A DNA stretch of 62,881 nt from Octadecabacter antarcticus 307 (GTDB lineage: Bacteria > Pseudomonadota > Alphaproteobacteria > Rhodobacterales > Rhodobacteraceae): assembly GCF_000155675.2 (NCBI RefSeq), contig NC_020907.1, forward strand, positions 1 through 62,881. The letters are read 5' to 3'. A model generated the notes under the pieces. That model did no database searches. It was not told the DNA's origin and was given only the letters and a program-made list of their open reading frames with translations. Made by a program: the position numbers and the translations under genes. Within the stretch, counting starts at the first letter, position 1. Each line of letters starts with the position of its first letter. Shown here piece after piece: positions 101 to 50,430 of this stretch.

Positions 101-1306
101 ATGAGCGGGAAAAGAGCAACCATGTTTAAGACAGCACCGATTTCGGCCGCGTCTCAATCCGATGTCACCGAACAAATGGCGGCACGGCTCAAGATAGCTT
201 TAGCCACTCATCTAGCGCAAGTTTATGCGCCTGATCAACGCAAATCTTTGAGACTATTTAGTGCAACAGAGACATCTGAGCTGTTGGGCGTGTCGGGACA
301 ATTCCTGCGCAAATGCCATAGCGAGGGAACCTTAGTAGAGCCTGTGGTGAACACAGGCGGCCGACGCTCGTACTCAGGGGATGAAATTTGGGCAATGCGC
401 CAAGCGCTCGAAGTCGGTTCGCGTAGTGTGGGAAAATACGTTCCTGGTCGTCGCAAGGGGGACAAGCTTCAGGTTGTCCAGTTAATGAACTTTAAAGGAG
501 GGTCCGCAAAATCTACTGCGACCATTCATTTGTGTCACTATCTTTGCCTGAGTGGCTATCGTGTGTTGGCGGTGGATCTCGATCCCCAAGGTAGTTTGAC
601 CGGGTTTTGTGGTCTTCAAACGGAATTAGAATTTGATGGGCTAACGATCTACGACGCCTTACGGTATGAAGATCCCCTGCCCTTGTCAGATGTAATCATC
701 GACACGTATTTTCCAGGCCTTGATTTGGCCCCTGCTCGGCTCATACTTAGTGAGTTCGAGACTGAAACAGCTGTTAATGCTGGCCGAGGTGCCGCGTTTT
801 TTGAACGTCTGTCGAATGCGATTGCGCCAATAGAAGATAATTATGATGTTGTCATTATCGATAGCCCCCCTGCCCTCGGATTTTTGACGCTCACGGGGCT
901 TTTTGCTGCAACATCCGTGTTGGTGCCAATGACCCCTAGCATGCTTGACCTTGCCTCAACTCAGCAGTTTATCGAAATGACATCCGCCTATCTTGGGGTG
1001 ATTGAAGATACCGGTGTCCGCATCGACCACGACTTTTTCAGTTTTTTGATTACCCGTGATGACCCAAGCGACATTCCAAGTCAGCAAATCGTGTCCTTGA
1101 TGCGAGCATTATTTCAGGAGCGAATTATTCCATCCACGGCGCTGCGCAGTACTGCTGTTGGCGACGCGTCGATGTTGAAAATGTCGATCTACGAGGTTGC
1201 ACGTTCTGACATGACACGCAGTACCTATGATCGCGCGCGCAAGAGCATGGACGCCGTTGGGTCGGACGTCGCGGACTTAGTTCAACAAGCATGGGGGCGT
1301 ATCTAA
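101..1306 (+). CDS. repA: RepA, ParA-type plasmid partition ATPase
   Basis: Partition ATPase and autorepressor of a repABC replicon; with RepB and parS sites it segregates plasmid copies. An N-terminal MerR-like helix-turn-helix region (about residues 52-100) precedes the deviant Walker A FKGGSAKST (131-139), the DLDPQGS motif (159-165) and VVIIDSPPALG (250-260). At 401 residues it has the usual RepA length. An in-frame ATG at 122 has purine-rich sequence (GGGAAAAGAG) just upstream and is an equally good start. The stop overlaps the repB start (TAATG), so the two are translationally coupled. A possible -35 TTGACT lies at 44-49, with only a weak -10 about 17-19 bases on. Confidence 0.95.
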   Translation: MSGKRATMFKTAPISAASQSDVTEQMAARLKIALATHLAQVYAPDQRKSLRLFSATETSELLGVSGQFLRKCHSEGTLVEPVVNTGGRRSYSGDEIWAMRQALEVGSRSVGKYVPGRRKGDKLQVVQLMNFKGGSAKSTATIHLCHYLCLSGYRVLAVDLDPQGSLTGFCGLQTELEFDGLTIYDALRYEDPLPLSDVIIDTYFPGLDLAPARLILSEFETETAVNAGRGAAFFERLSNAIAPIEDNYDVVIIDSPPALGFLTLTGLFAATSVLVPMTPSMLDLASTQQFIEMTSAYLGVIEDTGVRIDHDFFSFLITRDDPSDIPSQQIVSLMRALFQERIIPSTALRSTAVGDASMLKMSIYEVARSDMTRSTYDRARKSMDAVGSDVADLVQQAWGRI

Positions 1307-2277
1307 TGGCACTCGACAAGAATAAATTTGGTATCTTGGCCGCTATCGCCGCTGCGACTGAAGACGAAGCCTCGTTTGAAAAACCTTCTGTAACGGCTCG
1401 TGCACATCGAACTCTGCCCAAAGGAACCGTGGGTTCGGTTAGAGCTGGTTTAGGTGGCATTCAGGATATTGATACGTCGTTGATCATGCCTTGGGGGCCG
1501 CAAGATCGGTTGGAGTTAACAGCTGTTAACGCTGCTGATGAAGACGTTCAGGACCTTGCAGAAAGTATTAAAAACAGTGGGCAACAAGTTCCAGCTCTAT
1601 TGCGTCCTGCAGAGCATCGGGACGGCAAGTTTGAGGTCATTTATGGCCGACGCCGCATTTTGGCATGCCGGAAGCTGGGCGTTCCCGTCAAAGCACTAAT
1701 CCGAACATTGGACGATAGCGAAGCTTTGATTGCGAAGGGCTTGGAAAACACCAGCAGACAAGACTTGAGTTTTTATGAACGTGCGCGTTTTGCTCAAGCA
1801 ATCCTTGATCAGAGTTACACTCGAGAGCAGGCCCAGCAAGCGCTGACAATCAGCAAGAACACGTTGTCCCAACTTGAACGTGTGGCGCGTCTGATTCCTG
1901 ATTTAGTAGGGGTGGCGATTGGACCTGCGCACGGTGCGGGTCGACCCAAGTGGATGGCCTTAGCTGCCGCTTTCGAGAGCGCTGCGATTTCTGAAGGTGA
2001 TGTGTTCAAGCTGCTAGCAGAGTGCCCAAAGAACGCGGGTTCTGATGCCCGACTGCAAGCGGCACTCGCCAGTTTGACCAAACGTGGTGCTAAAGAGGCG
2101 CGGCCATCCGAAAGAACCCCAGTGAAGGGAGCTATTGTTAGGTCCACCAAGTCGGCGGTTTCGCTGACGGTGAAGCGGGCAGGGGCCACCAAAGGTTTTG
2201 CAGACTGGATCGATAACAACATCGACCGTCTGATCGAGGAATCCCACCAGTCGTTTCAGGACGAAACTGGAGGATAA
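1306..2277 (+). CDS. repB: RepB, ParB-type partition protein
   Basis: DNA-binding partition protein that recognises the plasmid's parS palindromes. It has an N-terminal RepA-interaction segment, a ParB nuclease-like domain with YGRRRILACRKLG about one third of the way in, then a helix-turn-helix region (TREQAQQALTISKNTLSQLERVA). I chose ATG 1306, which overlaps the repA stop by one base, over ATG 1291; starting there the protein begins MALDKNKFG and is 323 residues long, typical for RepB. A perfect parS-type palindrome lies inside this gene at 1515-1530 and another just after it. Confidence 0.94.
   Translation: MALDKNKFGILAAIAAATEDEASFEKPSVTARAHRTLPKGTVGSVRAGLGGIQDIDTSLIMPWGPQDRLELTAVNAADEDVQDLAESIKNSGQQVPALLRPAEHRDGKFEVIYGRRRILACRKLGVPVKALIRTLDDSEALIAKGLENTSRQDLSFYERARFAQAILDQSYTREQAQQALTISKNTLSQLERVARLIPDLVGVAIGPAHGAGRPKWMALAAAFESAAISEGDVFKLLAECPKNAGSDARLQAALASLTKRGAKEARPSERTPVKGAIVRSTKSAVSLTVKRAGATKGFADWIDNNIDRLIEESHQSFQDETGG
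1515..1530. promoter_or_regulatory. parS-type palindrome inside repB
   Basis: GTTAACAGCTGTTAAC is a perfect 16-base palindrome. Rhodobacterales repABC plasmids carry compatibility-group-specific palindromes of this form as RepB-binding centromere sites. Two near-identical copies are at 2283-2298 and 62844-62859. Confidence 0.85.
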
Positions 2278-2282
2278 TGCCA

Positions 2283-2298
2283 GTTAACATCTGTTAAC
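2283..2298. promoter_or_regulatory. parS-type palindrome between repB and repC
   Basis: GTTAACATCTGTTAAC matches the palindrome in repB except at one central base. It lies six bases after the repB stop and upstream of the antisense RNA gene, a usual place for repABC partition sites. Confidence 0.82.
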
Positions 2299-2334
2299 TG
2301 GAGAACTGAGGATAAGAGCAAACAAGGAGGATAA

Positions 2335-2400
2335 CGCAAAAAGAAACCCTCGAAACCGGAGTTCCGAGGGCTGCAACGCCAAAGCGCTGATTGTTCTCAC
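2335..2400 (-). ncRNA. Antisense RNA (ctRNA) controlling repC
   Basis: repABC plasmids encode a short counter-transcribed RNA between repB and repC that limits RepC synthesis and determines incompatibility. Read on the minus strand there is a -35 TTGTGC (2430-2435), a 17-base spacer and a -10 TAAGAT (2407-2412), so transcription should begin near 2400. The transcript would end at a hairpin with stem CCCTCG/CGAGGG (2347-2352 with 2365-2370) followed on this strand by TTTCTTTTTG. The implied RNA is about 60-65 nt, in the range known for such RNAs. Position, promoter and terminator all agree; expression itself is inferred. Confidence 0.8.
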
Positions 2401-2440
2401 ACTTCAATCTTAGCAGTCCCCGAATCGCCGCACAACAAAA

Positions 2441-2475
2441 AAACGCCTTTGGGCGAACGGGTATCTGCGGCGTTT
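2441..2475 (+). promoter_or_regulatory. repC leader stem-loop
   Basis: AAACGCC (2441-2447) can pair with GGCGTTT (2469-2475) just before the repC start, and its CGCC (2444-2447) can alternatively pair with the nearer GGCG at 2452-2455. Mutually exclusive leader structures set by antisense RNA binding are the known mode of repC control; that these two are the switch is inferred. Confidence 0.5.
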
Positions 2476-2483
2476 AGAAACAT

Positions 2484-3830
2484 ATGGGACATTTTAGACA
2501 ACCGCCCTTCGGGGTAACTGGTCCTGTTAGGCACCAGATTGAAAGCAAAAGACCAACTGGCTGGCGCAAACCCACCGCAGGCTTAGCGACAGGAGAGCAA
2601 TTCGCTCAAGCTGGTGAGCGGGCCTCTATAGCCAAATCTAAGGCCTTCGTGGCCGTGAAGCGAGTGGGGGCGCATATAGGCCTGAAAGCCAGCGACATGA
2701 TGCTTCTGGACACGCTTGGAGCCTTCACAAAGGCCCAGGACTGGGAGGAGGGCAGGCGGCCTATCATTTGGGCCTCCAACGCGTATCTGATGGAGCAGAC
2801 TGGGTTTTCTCTGTCAGCCCTAAAACGTCATGCGCGGCGCTTGGCTGAAGCCGGTATCATCGCCTTCAAAGACAGCCCCAATGGCAAACGCTGGGGCCAT
2901 AGGGACGCGGATGGTGTAATTGTTGAGGCTTATGGCTTTGATCTGTCGCCTATGTCGGCTCGTGTGGATGAGTTCGGGCATCTCCACGTCGAACTACAGG
3001 CCGAACGTGAACTCTGCTTACGCCTGAAGCGCCAGATCACAGTGGCGCGCCGTATGATCCGTGCTCGCATCGAGGCAGCTCTCAACGGCACGCTGAGCGG
3101 TCCTTGGGCGCAACTGACAACTGTGTTCGAAGACCTACTGGGGCGGCTACCACGCCGTAAAGAAGCCTCTGAGACGTTAGAGCGACTCTTGGCTTGGTTT
3201 AAAGCACTGCAGGAGCGCGTCGAGGTATCCTTTTTCAAGGCAACTGAAACTTTTGAGGCTGTGGAAAACCTGCCTCTAATTGAAAGTTCAGTTGTTAATA
3301 ATACTAAGAATATGGACCCCAAGGGGGCCACTACTGAACCTCATATACTAAATACAAATCAACTTAATCCTGTAGTGTGTAAGTCCTCAGAAGTAGAGAA
3401 CGTTGAAAGTGTGGTGCTAAATGCTCCACCCGAAGAGCGTGTGGATGTGGGATTGGAAGACTGGGTAACTGAAGCACGCAAAAAGCGTGGGGCAGCTTTA
3501 GATTTACCAACTGTCATGCAGGCTTGTCCTGAATTTGCCTCTTGGGCGCGCAATTTGGGTGGATACCTGAAGGACTGGAGCGATCTTCATCGGATTGTGG
3601 GTCAACTCAGACCGATGATTGGCGTTTCGGACCATGCGTGGAACCTTGCGCAAGCCCGGCTTGGAACACAGGTTGCGACAGCAGCTCTTGTTTTGGTATT
3701 TGACAAACATTGCGCAGGCGAAATCAATTCACCAGGTGGATACCTACGCGGCATGGTCGAAAAGGCCGGGGCAGGGGAGCTGCATCTTGAGCGCAGTTTC
3801 TATGGGCGTTTGAACGGGCAGGCCGCATGA
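2484..3830 (+). CDS. repC: RepC, replication initiator
   Basis: Initiator protein of repABC plasmids; the origin normally lies within the repC coding sequence. The N-terminal half holds the conserved RepC region with TGPVRHQ near residue 12 and a winged-helix segment (residues about 90-125, WASNAYLMEQTGFSLSALKR). A linker rich in Asn/Glu/Thr separates it from a C-terminal domain ending near RLNGQAA. At 448 residues it is slightly longer than many RepC proteins. No clear Shine-Dalgarno precedes ATG 2484, consistent with structure-controlled translation. Confidence 0.93.
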   Translation: MGHFRQPPFGVTGPVRHQIESKRPTGWRKPTAGLATGEQFAQAGERASIAKSKAFVAVKRVGAHIGLKASDMMLLDTLGAFTKAQDWEEGRRPIIWASNAYLMEQTGFSLSALKRHARRLAEAGIIAFKDSPNGKRWGHRDADGVIVEAYGFDLSPMSARVDEFGHLHVELQAERELCLRLKRQITVARRMIRARIEAALNGTLSGPWAQLTTVFEDLLGRLPRRKEASETLERLLAWFKALQERVEVSFFKATETFEAVENLPLIESSVVNNTKNMDPKGATTEPHILNTNQLNPVVCKSSEVENVESVVLNAPPEERVDVGLEDWVTEARKKRGAALDLPTVMQACPEFASWARNLGGYLKDWSDLHRIVGQLRPMIGVSDHAWNLAQARLGTQVATAALVLVFDKHCAGEINSPGGYLRGMVEKAGAGELHLERSFYGRLNGQAA

Positions 3831-45745: not shown

Positions 45746-46236
45746 TCTCTCCTGAATATTGAAACCCGCATTAGCAGTATGGTTTCAGTATTCAGGAGAG
45801 AAGATCACGCTTTACTCCTCGTCCGTGCACACGCGATTTTACCATAGATTTCACGTCGTGTGGGTCACAAAATATAGATACAGGGTATTGCAGGGTGCGA
45901 TGCGAGAGAGGATACGCGAGATTATCATGCAAACATGTGCCGAAATAGGCGTCCATGACGTGAAAGGTGTGCTAAGAGGCGGTCATGTGCACATGTTACT
46001 GTCAATTCCACTAAAACTGTTCCTGTCCAACTTTATGCAACTCGTAAAGGGCCGCTCGTCACGCCGCATCGAGATGGAATTCCCTGAGCTGTGCAAGCGC
46101 TACTGGGGCAGGCGGTTTTGGGCATGCGGATATTTCTCACCCACCTCTGGAAATGTGACTGACGACATCATCACGCAGTATCTGAAATTGCATTCCTCTA
46201 AATGAGACTACCGGCCTCAGCCGGTAGTCCTTCACT
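45746..46236 (+). mobile_element. IS200/IS605-family element
   Basis: Left-end stem-loop: a 21-base arm at 45746-45766 pairs with 45781-45801 with one mismatch. Right-end hairpin GACTACCGGC/GCCGGTAGTC at 46206-46229. These flank a Y1 (HUH) transposase gene; such elements lack inverted repeats and target duplications and move as single strands. It has inserted into, or beside, a resolvase gene. Confidence 0.85.
45759..46205 (+). CDS. tnpA: IS200/IS605-family TnpA (HUH transposase)
   Basis: Single-strand transposase: YHRFHVVWVTKYRYRVL at the N-terminus, the metal-binding His pair in GGHVHMLLSIP, and the nucleophile Tyr in DDIITQYLKLH. The open frame begins inside the left-end hairpin at ATG 45759. 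The conserved protein starts near YSSSVHTRFYH (about 45813), where no ATG is present, so the true start is uncertain. Conserved length about 130 residues, normal for the family. Confidence 0.88.
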   Translation: MKPALAVWFQYSGEKITLYSSSVHTRFYHRFHVVWVTKYRYRVLQGAMRERIREIIMQTCAEIGVHDVKGVLRGGHVHMLLSIPLKLFLSNFMQLVKGRSSRRIEMEFPELCKRYWGRRFWACGYFSPTSGNVTDDIITQYLKLHSSK

Positions 46237-46611
46237 TGCACGACGGGTGATACGTTCCCACTCTACTTCCGCTAATGCAGATAGAAACGCGAGGACTCCT
46301 TTCCCCACCGGGGTCGTCAGATCAAGCCAAGGTTTGTCCAATACTTTGACGGTCGCGGATCGGTCAGCAACGTGATGAATGATACCTATCCCGTCCATCA
46401 TTGATCTGGTGGCCCGATCCCATTCGGCGATGAGTAATACGTCCCCTGCCCCCAAAGCATCAATGGTACGTTCCAATTGAGGTCAGGCTTTGATCGTTCG
46501 TCCAGATGCCACTTCACGGAAGATCTTATTGGCTTTGACTGCATTCAAAGCACTGATCTGACGATCGAGGGATTATCCCTGACTGTACACTCTGGCGTAA
46601 TCGATAAGCAT
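46237..46611 (-). pseudogene. Serine recombinase (resolvase) fragment
   Basis: Starting at ATG 46611 the minus strand reads MLIDYARVYSQG, stop, SLDRQISALNAVKANKIFRE, another stop, then ERTIDALGAGDVLLIAEWDR and FLSALAEVEWERITRRA. This is the catalytic domain of a Tn3/Hin-type resolvase. It carries two nonsense codons, and its C-terminal DNA-binding part is cut off by the IS200/IS605 right end. Confidence 0.85.
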
Positions 46612-46680: not shown

Positions 46681-47016
46681 ATGATTAGCCCAAGTTGTTG
46701 CAAATATCATCAAATTTGCACCTCAATGCACAGCGGTCATTGCTTTGATTTTACCGTGGAACTACGCCGCATAGCTGTGATCAAGACAACGTTTACGGCA
46801 AAAGAGGCATGGACCGACGCGGTGGGTCGCCCCGAAACACAATACGACGCTCGGATGCAATCGCTAATGGGACTCGCGTTGGCGCAAATAGACATCCTCT
46901 ATAAGCCAAAACTCATACGGGTAAACGGTACGCGGACGCGGCGGTATTACCGCATAGGGACCAACTCTGGCGACGAGTGGATGCCCTTACCGGAAGGTCA
47001 CGAGACCCCAAAGTAG
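46681..47016 (+). CDS. Hypothetical protein, possibly truncated
   Basis: 111-residue frame; only the part from about residue 30 (LRRIAVIKTTFTAKEAW) to the end (RYYRIGTNSGDEWMPLPEG) looks like ordinary protein, whereas the first 28 residues are Cys/His-rich and may be read-through. It is followed by a strong terminator, which supports transcription of something here. I do not recognise the family. Confidence 0.45.
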   Translation: MISPSCCKYHQICTSMHSGHCFDFTVELRRIAVIKTTFTAKEAWTDAVGRPETQYDARMQSLMGLALAQIDILYKPKLIRVNGTRTRRYYRIGTNSGDEWMPLPEGHETPK

Positions 47017-47063
47017 AGGACCCCAAAAACGGTTCTCCATTATCACTTGGATCGGACATTATT

Positions 47064-47097
47064 AAGCCCGCGCGGGACCTCCGTAGCGGGCTTTTTC
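47064..47097 (+). terminator. Rho-independent terminator
   Basis: Stem AAGCCCGC/GCGGGCTT (47064-47071 with 47086-47093), then TTTTT. It lies 47 bases after the hypothetical gene and faces the same way. Confidence 0.8.
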
Positions 47098-47299
47098 GTG
47101 CCCGACGTCACCACCTAATTACACCTCCTGTGAGCGATTTTTGAGGCCCACGAAGTGAAAGGACTCGACTCCTAATATCTTTCTACTGGCAGTGGAGAAC
47201 CGTCGGTTGTCTATTCGTAGTGGAGAAAATTATTGAAAAGCGCAATTCAAACCGACGCGGAAACGCGAAAAACGAAAAACGAAAAAATTCGGTCGATTT

Positions 47300-47586
47300 T
47301 GTCACGAGGTCTACATACCTAGTGACAGGACCTCGTGACAGCATTTGCGTCATATAAACAAGGGCGATGGCAGACCGTGGCACTAGGTGAGGCTAGTGGC
47401 ACTAGGGGGGTAGCTATGTAGCGGCTGTGGGGGAACTTGAAATACTGTACTTTTATTTCTTTTCTATTCTCACAATCTAAACAGCTACCCCCCTAGAGCC
47501 ACTAGAACCACCTCGTGACAACCCCTTATTTATATGACGCAAAAGGGTGTCACGAGGTGTGTCACGAGGTATAGACCTAGTGCCAC
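47300..47586. repeat. Nested inverted-repeat region with iterons
   Basis: Five exact copies of TGTCACGAGGT: plus-oriented at 47300-47310, 47548-47558 and 47560-47570, inverted at 47330-47340 and 47510-47520. GTGGCACTAG occurs at 47377-47386 and 47396-47405, inverted at 47577-47586. An outer arm at 47330-47364 matches the reverse complement of 47522-47558 closely; an inner 23-base arm at 47393-47415 matches the reverse complement of 47483-47505 with one mismatch. The centre (47416-47482) is AT-rich. No gene overlaps. It resembles an origin or a multi-protein binding platform. Confidence 0.85.
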
Positions 47587-47907
47587 CCCCCGTTGTCTAG
47601 CGGCAGTGGAAACATTGGGCTTCTGGCTCTGGGGCGGACCCTCCGATCACCACCTAAAACCCGCTCGTCTAAGACCCCCAAAAAATCCCAGAGTACCATC
47701 CCCCGAGACCGTTTGCGCGGCGCTCCAACAGTACAAACAATGAGTGTCTAAGGCAGCAAATAGAAACGTCTGCTACGTCGCGCTCTGCGCCCCCCGCGAC
47801 GGCTGAAAATCGCTGGGAAGGACCCGAAGCCAGATGTGAGGAAAACGCATAGGTTCTCTATTGGAAACAGACAACCGGACAATGTGGCGACGCTTCGCAG
47901 TCTGGCG

Positions 47908-47947
47908 CACCCTGACACCCTGACACCCTGACACCCTGCCACCCTGA
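47908..47947. repeat. Five tandem 8-base repeats
   Basis: CACCCTGA repeated five times in a row, the fourth unit ending in C. No gene covers it; it looks like a variable-number repeat. Confidence 0.9.
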
Positions 47948-48012
47948 TCCCGAGTCCATCGGCGTCAGACAACCTAGGCGACACGCGACACCACGACTCA
48001 GGCGCAACGCGA

Positions 48013-48315
48013 TTGGGCACACTAGGCACTTCAGCTTATGAGGCACTGGCCAATGGCCGAGTTGATTTCACGCTTGAAGTCAGCACATGGGAATGCGTGA
48101 ATTCGACTTTGCTGGACCGTCCACAACGGGCCTTTCGATATGCCGATTACGGCGTTCCAGACCAGGATACGACTTTCTTGGGTTGCAATGGGACTTGGTT
48201 GGCCGCCAACCCAGAAATAGCACGCGCATTCGTACAGGCGGCCCAGCGAGGCTATGAATACGCGGCCAACAATCCAGCAGATGCCGCTGAAATTCTGATT
48301 GTCGGTTGGGTTTGA
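48013..48315 (+). pseudogene. NMT1/THI5-type solute-binding protein fragment
   Basis: About 100 residues from the second half of an ABC-type binding protein for thiamine-precursor-like or other nitrogenous substrates: GTSAYEALANGRVDFTLEV, YADYGVPDQDTTFLGCN and ARAFVQAAQRGYEYAANNP. N- and C-terminal portions and partner genes are missing, so this is an orphan fragment. Confidence 0.72.
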
Positions 48316-48926: not shown

Positions 48927-49532
48927 TTAACCCCACATCTTGGCAGCGATGTCCTGCTCTTCTTTGCCGATGGCATCTGCGTAGATCGTCGTTGTGGAAA
49001 GCTGCGCGTGGCCCATCCACTTTTGTAGCATGTGCAGTGGAATACCTTTCACAACGGCATTGACACCGAACCCGTGCCGCAAGCCTTTTGGACTTCTGTG
49101 TCCAGCGTCGACAATTTTGGCCTCGATCATGACATCTTTAACGATCTGCCAGACCCTAACGCGGGACAGCGCCCAGATCGGTACATGCGCCAGCTTGCGT
49201 GATTTCTGCGTTTCTCTGATGCCGTGTGCTATGTTCAGGGTGTCAAGATAGTCCGGTGGCACTGGAATTGCGCGGTAGACAGCCTTTTGCTCACCAGAGC
49301 GGTCCTTGCGCTTCTTGAGCGACCTGATGGTCACAGCGCCACCAGAGAGGTCTATACGGGCGGGGGTGATCTCGATCAACTCTGACGGCCTGCACCCAGT
49401 ATAGTGCAGCGTTTCGCAGAGTGTGCGGTCGCGGGCGGGTCGTTGACGCGCAACATGCAAGAATGCTGCTCTCTCCTCAGCATTGAGGTACAGGCGGTTT
49501 CCTTTAGGATCATAGAGGGTCATTTCACTCAT
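48927..49532 (-). CDS. Tyrosine recombinase (phage-integrase family)
   Basis: 201-residue catalytic-core recombinase without a large N-terminal arm domain: first Arg in TGCRPSELIEI, the box II segment SPKGLRHGFG (HxxR position reads KxxR), His in KWMGHAQLSTTTIYADA and the nucleophile Tyr in the same segment. Possible jobs are resolving plasmid multimers or integrating cassettes. The gene is coupled to the WGR gene. Inverted repeats directly upstream (49535-49560 and 49613-49626) are candidate binding sites. Confidence 0.88.
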   Translation of the reverse strand: MSEMTLYDPKGNRLYLNAEERAAFLHVARQRPARDRTLCETLHYTGCRPSELIEITPARIDLSGGAVTIRSLKKRKDRSGEQKAVYRAIPVPPDYLDTLNIAHGIRETQKSRKLAHVPIWALSRVRVWQIVKDVMIEAKIVDAGHRSPKGLRHGFGVNAVVKGIPLHMLQKWMGHAQLSTTTIYADAIGKEEQDIAAKMWG

Positions 49533-49534
49533 AT

Positions 49535-49626
49535 TTAACAGTTTATCCGAAGACTGTTAAGCAAAGAAGTAAAAAACAACTTTATCTGTTCGATAAATAG
49601 TGGATCGGTGGCGTGTTATTTAACAC
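49535..49626. promoter_or_regulatory. Inverted repeats upstream of the recombinase
   Basis: TTAACAGT (49535-49542) pairs with ACTGTTAA (49553-49560), and GTGTTATTTAACAC (49613-49626) is a GTGTTA/TAACAC dyad. Both carry TTAACA-type half sites. They could be recombination core or arm sites, or operators. Confidence 0.45.
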
Positions 49627-49650
49627 TATCACTCATTGTGTTAACTAGCA

Positions 49651-50430
49651 GTGCCGGCTCCCCCCTTGGTCAGGGATGTTTTCCACACGCAGTCTCTGCA
49701 AATGTTGGTCTTGCTCTGCATTGTCTCCGCGGGCACAACTGCCACTCAGTTAACTTTTGACTTGGATATACCTTTGAGTTTCTTTTCGGTCACGTCAGTT
49801 CCAAAGCTTCGATGGAGCTCGCCAAAGGCTTTCACATTGAAACCGCCATTGGCATCAGTCACGTTTCTCATCCTCGGCTTGGTGGTATTTGGCTTGGGAG
49901 AGGCAATACTGGTCACCGCAGGTGTCGGCGTGAGCCCCTGGACTATGTTCGCGGAAGGCGTGACCAATGTCACAGGTTTGAGCTTGGGATTTGCTACATT
50001 TGTCATCAGTGCAATCGTCTTGGTCTTGTGGATTCCACTTAAGCAAACACCTGGCATTGGAACGATCCTGAACGCGATCATCATAGCCTTGGTGTTGGAA
50101 TACGTGCTGCCCTTTTTGCCAACATTTGAGACGTATGTTGCAAATGCCTTGCTGGCTTTAGTGGGTGTGTTGGTAACCGGATTTGGCGGAGCCATATATC
50201 TGGTTGCTAACTTAGGACCTGGACCCCGAGATGGCCTCATGACCGGGTTTCAGACGGTCACACATCAACCCATCGCGCTCGTGCGCATGATTCTTGAGTT
50301 GACCGTTGTCGCGATCGGTTGGGCCTTGGGTGGCACGCTTGGCTTGGGCACAGTTTTCTTTGCCTTGGGAATTGGACCAGCAATGGCGATTGGGATGCAA
50401 ATTCTACAACTTCGCAGTAGCGCGCATTAG
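49651..50430 (+). CDS. YczE/YitT-type membrane protein
   Basis: Integral membrane protein with about five or six helices. The conserved part starts near TSVPKLRWSS and includes GLGEAILVTAGVGVSPWTMF, GFATFVISAIVLVLWIPLKQ, VTGFGGAIYLVANLGPGPRDGL (key part NLGPGPRDG) and FALGIGPAMAIGMQIL. Only GTG 49651 or ATG 49702 are obvious starts, and the first 35 residues look unlike the family, so the 5' end may be altered. Function unknown. Confidence 0.78.
   Translation: MPAPPLVRDVFHTQSLQMLVLLCIVSAGTTATQLTFDLDIPLSFFSVTSVPKLRWSSPKAFTLKPPLASVTFLILGLVVFGLGEAILVTAGVGVSPWTMFAEGVTNVTGLSLGFATFVISAIVLVLWIPLKQTPGIGTILNAIIIALVLEYVLPFLPTFETYVANALLALVGVLVTGFGGAIYLVANLGPGPRDGLMTGFQTVTHQPIALVRMILELTVVAIGWALGGTLGLGTVFFALGIGPAMAIGMQILQLRSSAH

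Follow-up and report, generated by a model that had tools for sequence, protein, structure and literature searches.

The 286-bp palindrome at positions 47300-47585 is most probably an origin of replication left behind on a repABC plasmid of Octadecabacter antarcticus 307; its source would be a chi-like (Casjensviridae) phage or a PICMI-like satellite that shares the end module of such phages. The window, that is the whole stretch of DNA that was analysed, is a 62,881-bp contig, one of two in the genome, and has repABC at 101-3830. Chi-like phages and elements integrated in Rhodobacterales genomes show a recurring order in which a VapE/DUF5906 replicase gene is followed by an iteron-bearing palindrome and then by cos. 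Sequence comparison is the basis of this reading.

The first-pass annotation described nested inverted repeats with five iterons in a gene-free zone. The structure is real and was understated: the nested repeats belong to a single continuous imperfect palindrome (comparison of 47300-47585 with its own reverse complement) with nine TGKCACKAGGT sites. The palindrome aligns to its reverse complement over the full length with 69% identity (E 1.7e-21), and its self-score is 131 bits against 31.1 for the highest of 40 shuffles. The fold z of 47300-47585 is -12.7 as DNA and -11.5 as RNA, and none of 100 shuffles equalled either value. With at most one mismatch, all nine TGKCACKAGGT sites of the 62,881-bp window lie within 47300-47585. 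Five of these are exact copies of TGTCACGAGGT, at 47300(+), 47330(-), 47510(-), 47548(+) and 47560(+), and zero exact copies are present on the 4.81-Mb chromosome. The two arms, of about 120 bases each, carry identical boxes in mirror order by arm alignment, and the inner 23-base repeat (47393-47415 and 47483-47505) with its 67-base centre is as first described. The centre is AT-rich (35% GC over 47422-47483), and a 12-mer within it, TTTTCTATTCTC at 47460-47471, recurs in the palindrome of the viral contig L121. The palindrome is present as a single copy in its own genome. Its features are as follows.

47300-47585, no strand: imperfect palindrome of 286 bp, proposed iteron origin (self-alignment, folds, arm alignment, shuffles)
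47300-47310, plus: iteron TGTCACGAGGT (motif scan)
47317-47327, minus: iteron variant TGTCACTAGGT (motif scan)
47330-47340, minus: iteron TGTCACGAGGT (motif scan)
47344-47364, plus: AT-rich box of the left arm, 95% complementary to the right-arm box
47378-47388, plus: iteron variant TGGCACTAGGT (motif scan)
47393-47415, plus: inner inverted repeat, left copy, 23 bp (read off the sequence; arm alignment)
47397-47407, plus: iteron variant TGGCACTAGGG with one mismatch (motif scan)
47416-47482, no strand: AT-rich centre of 67 bases, proposed melting region (GC content)
47483-47505, minus: inner inverted repeat, right copy, 23 bp (read off the sequence; arm alignment)
47510-47520, minus: iteron TGTCACGAGGT (motif scan)
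47520-47535, minus: 16-nt AT box ATATAAATAAGGGGTT, identical in the palindrome region of Ruegeria phage V11
47548-47558, plus: iteron TGTCACGAGGT (motif scan)
47560-47570, plus: iteron TGTCACGAGGT (motif scan)
47575-47585, minus: iteron variant TGGCACTAGGT (motif scan)

The description as gene-free holds for the palindrome proper, but a 96-aa ORF that stops 283 bases earlier is taken to be related to it. This ORF and the features to the right of the palindrome are listed here.

46726-47016, plus: ORF of 96 aa, interpreted as what is left of the C terminus of a VapE-type replicase (profile score)
47052-47105, plus: terminator-like inverted repeat and T run (inverted-repeat scan; T run read off the sequence)
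47585-48028, plus: right flank with a 72% identical relative on the host's own chromosome
47778-47798, plus: cos-like core TCGCGCTCTGCGCCCCCCGCG, with a 12-nt piece resembling a cohesive end at 47782-47793 (pattern and chi end)
47815-47826, plus: GGGAAGGACCCG box after the core, present in relatives too with base changes
47908-47947, plus: 8-bp tandem repeats CACCCTGA

The 96-aa ORF had zero matches in Pfam, PHROG and NCBIfam, and a homologue search returned two entries, the ORF itself and a metagenome relative, P0002 (83%), which is identical over the first 45 residues and divergent after them. When scored with a profile HMM of 10 VapE C-termini, the ORF reached 14.3 bits and P0002 18.9 bits, whereas the top of 5000 shuffles was 9.5. 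Its pairwise scores against four replicases were matched by 32, 37, 113 and 1266 of 2000 shuffles. The ORF reads as a VapE C-terminal remnant, an assignment that rests on the profile score, the pairwise scores being within reach of shuffles. Measured from its stop, the palindrome lies at +284 to +569 and the core at +762, and the orientation of the ORF, remnant though it is, fits a replicase reading towards cos. The first-pass annotation advised testing small plasmids with this array for a linked rep gene; here the element's own replicase gene appears to persist as a fragment only: at the window locus no intact primase or rep gene was found beyond the 96-aa C-terminal piece, and the host genome has zero matches to the VapE replicase P0003 at E <= 1e-10. 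Among the 20 window ORFs scanned with Pfam there is no virion gene, and the scanned ORFs near the window element do not include the combination of int, alpA and primase.

The cos-like core sits about 190 bp downstream of the palindrome. For phage chi, the cohesive end has been published as GGTGCGCAGAGC (PMC4342425); its reverse complement lies 929 nt past the stop of the chi primase and aligns with the core, so that GCTCTGCGCCCC at 47782-47793 of the window agrees with chi GCTCTGCGCACC at 11 of 12 bases. Two of the four Ruegeria phage records, DSS3-P1 and V16, terminate inside the core, while V11 extends beyond it and V18 stops short. Since the Ruegeria phage paper is silent on how the genome ends were set (PMC6256702), these record ends are support, not proof. 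The core pattern TCGCGCTCYGCGCCCCCCGCG, with at most one mismatch, was found at 12 sites in 11 of 390 genomes of the order, against one for the reversed pattern used as a control. Nine of the sites (8 genomes) are followed by a GGACCC box; the three without it (G637, G101 and G627) were dropped. A VapE/DUF5906-type replicase lies upstream in four of the nine core loci (G584, G556, G615 and G575), while the window has the remnant, G107 and G412 have no such replicase upstream, and the host's own chromosomal copy is cut off. The core of G437, a genome of the window's genus, lies in a phage-like region with a GpA-type terminase gene about 450 bp away. BLAST placed similar cores between genes of the Casjensviridae phages Ruegeria V11, Marinobacter PS6 and Klebsiella YMC16, and also on plasmid phiTHAF39; these matches are weak (E 0.1 to 2) and take their weight only from place, family and the GGACCC box. 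Viral contigs yielded 0 matches to the core pattern. Because of the chi-end match, the record ends and the terminase gene near the G437 core, we read the core as a cos site of the chi-like type.

A second cos-like core lies on the host chromosome (G000:C2:2900817-2900837). This chromosomal copy is cut on its left, upstream side by an apparent IS end. Beside the flank the plasmid carries a fragment of an NMT1-type transporter gene (window 48015-48299 against L038:8157-8441) that is 93% identical to the chromosomal gene, which lies about 3 kb from the chromosomal cos-like relic. Thus, plasmid and chromosome share a rearranged segment, with uneven identity between the flank copy (72%) and the adjoining transporter fragment (93%). 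At the place of the 47908-47947 repeats, other short tandem repeats are present in the chromosomal copy, G584 and V11, and the repeats are possibly the terminase-binding part of cos.

The first-pass annotation advised a search for the iteron in other plasmids and phages. The iteron word was not found there, and only the architecture recurs. The palindrome sequence gave no matches or chance-sized ones in plasmid and phage collections and in 394 genomes of the family and 390 of the order; a match in G224 was rejected, as it lies in coding-looking sequence taken by eye for a carboxylase gene. The paired-iteron pattern had no relative in viral contigs, and in genome contigs it gave 9 stretches against about 7 by a rough chance estimate. 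With the chromosomal flank copy as the query, 17 of 380 genomes had matches, mostly IS ends and simple repeats. Three of those matches fell within the flank block: in G584 and G556 a palindrome precedes a GC-rich core that both share, and G260 was dropped since inspection found no alignment.

At E <= 1e-10, 57 of 390 genomes contain relatives of the VapE replicase P0003, which comes from G615. Stretches were taken around the closer of these relatives, a few distant ones and one viral contig, giving 24 loci that include the window and five phage records and that extend 1.4 kb past the replicase stop, or less where the record ends. The best palindrome exceeded all 40 shuffles in 11 of the 24 (the window, V11, P1, chi, G645, G639a, G556, G630, V121, G584 and G472), a count in which V11 and P1 are near-identical phages with a small margin over shuffles. 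It was not above shuffles in the other 13, of which V18 and G405 tied. Palindromes of at least 58 bits were present in seven of the 24 loci and in none of 210 stretches taken as controls from 14 of these loci. Three control stretches reached at least 44 bits, all within chi, and the chi palindrome (39.7 bits) is above its own shuffles but below these three. In the seven relatives with palindromes of at least 44 bits, the palindrome starts 129-832 bp past the replicase stop.

Repeated words accompany the palindromes. A repeated 9-mer exceeded 40 shuffles in 13 of the 24 loci (the window, V11, V18, P1, G615a, G645, G459, G575, G556, G630, V121, G472 and G405). The iteron word varies by lineage: TGTTCCAGTG in V11, V121 and G556, TGTTCCATCA in G615a, TGTCGGATG in G630, TGGTCCGATG in G645, TGTCCCGGGG in G472 and TGTCACGAGGT in the window. 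V16 (TCGGAC six times) and chi (TTGTAAC five times forward and twice in reverse) fail the 9-mer test. An AT box of the ATATAAATAAGGGGTT type is found in nine loci. The core, with at most four mismatches, is present in 11 of the 24; two further records terminate within it, chi has an end of its own, three records are too short, and seven loci (G472, G445, G405, G457, G006, G332 and G397) lack it. G472 has no core, yet its palindrome is among the strongest.

Of the new evidence, the comparison of the phages V11 and V16 (L142 and L143) is the strongest. The two are 97% identical across 86% of the genome (PMC6256702), and the first 360 amino acids of their VapE proteins are 98% identical. The VapE-domain half, the small ORF of V11 and the palindrome are unalignable as DNA except for one 64-nt patch, and the last 100 residues of VapE are only 36% identical, whereas from just past the palindrome to cos the DNA is again 94-99% identical. 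The replaced block ends just past the palindrome, so the replicase half and the iterons travel together. Similarity of the VapE C terminus does not simply track the iteron word in these sequences: V121 and G556 (76% identical) share an iteron, as do V11 and V121 (32%), and V121 and G645 (58%) have different ones.

The V11/V16 pair also bears on the alternative that the palindrome is a regulatory or packaging part of the phage end, such as an extended cos or an operator array, and not an origin. Palindromic operator arrays exist, and the palindrome, where present, lies between the replicase and cos. However, V11 and V16 keep the cos side and differ jointly in palindrome and helicase half, a pattern that links the palindrome with the replicase and not with packaging, and the chi terminase genes are more than 10 kb away. 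A regulatory or packaging role is therefore unlikely.

A second replication origin was among the roles first proposed, and of these it fits best, as an origin of a phage or satellite beside cos. That it should be a second origin of the plasmid itself, with Rep supplied from elsewhere, is improbable. Such an origin would account for iterons and an AT-rich centre on a plasmid, but the plasmid owns repABC, the linked replicase is only a fragment, the host genome has no match to P0003 at the threshold given above, and the core and the replicase fragment indicate a phage or satellite source. The notion that the palindrome represents transposon or MITE ends, with two terminal repeats of about 120 bp, transposase sites and a short centre, draws on the long inverted arms, the several sites and the TG...CA ends. 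It has very little chance of being right, given the single genomic copy, the chance-sized matches in the family and order genomes, the lack of a target duplication at the ends by eye and the same architecture in phage relatives; nothing was found in support of the ends of a described transposon, which the first-pass annotation had named as a refutation. A structured RNA gene, also suggested there, is equally remote despite a very stable RNA fold, since the DNA fold z is equally strong, the Rfam matches are all below the gathering score (miRNA hairpin families, on both strands), and the repeated words occur in both orientations and change between relatives.

The phage or satellite origin can be compared with those of known systems. 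PICI origins are immediately 3' of the initiator gene and have two sets of iterons around an AT-rich region (available portion of PMC6092414), and the SaPI Rep recognises its origin through its C-terminal domain (available portion of PMC7581432). In the window, too, the palindrome is 3' of the replicase remnant, and two sets of short iterons flank an AT-rich centre. Several features set the present module apart from the SaPI and PICI origins, as far as those portions describe them: in the stronger cases the arms join into an almost unbroken inverted repeat, some 200-410 bp long; no more than about 1.4 kb separates the replicase stop from a cos-like core; and full chi-like phages have this plan too. 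The ends of the Casjensviridae phages chi, V11, V16 and DSS3-P1 have the order replicase, iteron region and cos, and the window shares their core and AT box. It differs from them in that its replicase is a fragment and the scanned ORFs include no virion gene.

The PICMI satellites of Vibrionaceae (PMC10803314, whose main text mentions neither "Rhodobact" nor "Alphaproteobacteria") offer another comparison. Like PICMI, G472 and G445 combine AlpA (PF05930) with a VapE-type replicase and, judged by eye, an integrase-like gene. They lie beside tRNA-Phe and are without a core, whereas PICMI115 is integrated downstream of fis. Within about 7 kb, G615 has an integrase, a gene overlapping the integrase by 4 nt (like iolg in PICMI), a VapE gene, a region of iterons and a core; its palindrome is not above shuffles, and its iteron count is. 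G615 is unlike PICMI in having a chi-like core, as no cos or pac was found in the genome of the PICMI helper phage according to the same text. Of the satellite genes, the window has only the replicase fragment. VapE-type elements near a tRNA-Phe gene (L085, L129, L130 and L133) make up 4 of 18 oriented loci in Rhodobacterales, and these tRNA-Phe-associated elements are an apparent satellite family. No paper on such satellites was found at the level of titles and listings, in literature short of most subscription journals.

The intact module has, in this order, the VapE/DUF5906 replicase gene, in some cases a small ORF, the palindrome and cos. The replicase would bind the iterons of both inverted arms, probably via its C-terminal part. 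The AT-rich centre would then melt, the helicase would load and priming would begin there, and terminase would cut the replicated DNA at cos, a few hundred bases away. Binding, melting, origin activity and packaging are all steps that we infer from the sequence. Since only a C-terminal fragment of its replicase is left, the window copy would be unable to start replication from its own locus alone.

The palindrome is a candidate origin for chi-like phages, none having been reported in the literature searched, which was short of most subscription journals. With it, the origin plan of SaPI/PICI would apply to whole phages as well, and to the apparent PICMI-like satellites of Rhodobacterales, for which chi-like phages are possible helpers via the shared cos. 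The V11/V16 pair makes the matching of replicase and origin directly testable. A further, unlikely proposal is that the plasmid is a natural cosmid that chi-like phages could package and transduce, and, more broadly, that the VapE helicase half and the palindromic origin form a swappable specificity cassette. The cosmid reading is suggested by the retained cos-like core, with its close match to the chi end, and by the length of the plasmid (62.9 kb), which is near the genome length of chi-like Ruegeria phages (59-61 kb). If the cassette reading is true, the cassette would decide whose replicase uses whose origin among chi-like phages and satellites of Rhodobacterales.

A tyrosine recombinase near the palindrome groups with plasmid recombinases, and the recombinase/WGR pair was set aside as a partner of the palindrome because a conserved site of its own lies upstream of the recombinase. 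Among seven plasmid recombinase loci, the best palindrome (114 bp, 46.8 bits) was at the Pontibrevibacter recombinase. A partial serine resolvase gene with the N-terminal domain only (46198-46476, minus strand) adjoins an IS200-type transposase gene (45759-46205). Upstream of the tyrosine recombinase gene (48927-49532), two dyads, TTAACACTAT..ATAGTGTTAA and, near the start codon, TTAACAGT..ACTGTTAA, lie at 49533-49660. In the six other plasmids compared, both are found again before the related recombinase, altered at some bases, and they are likely a plasmid resolution site.
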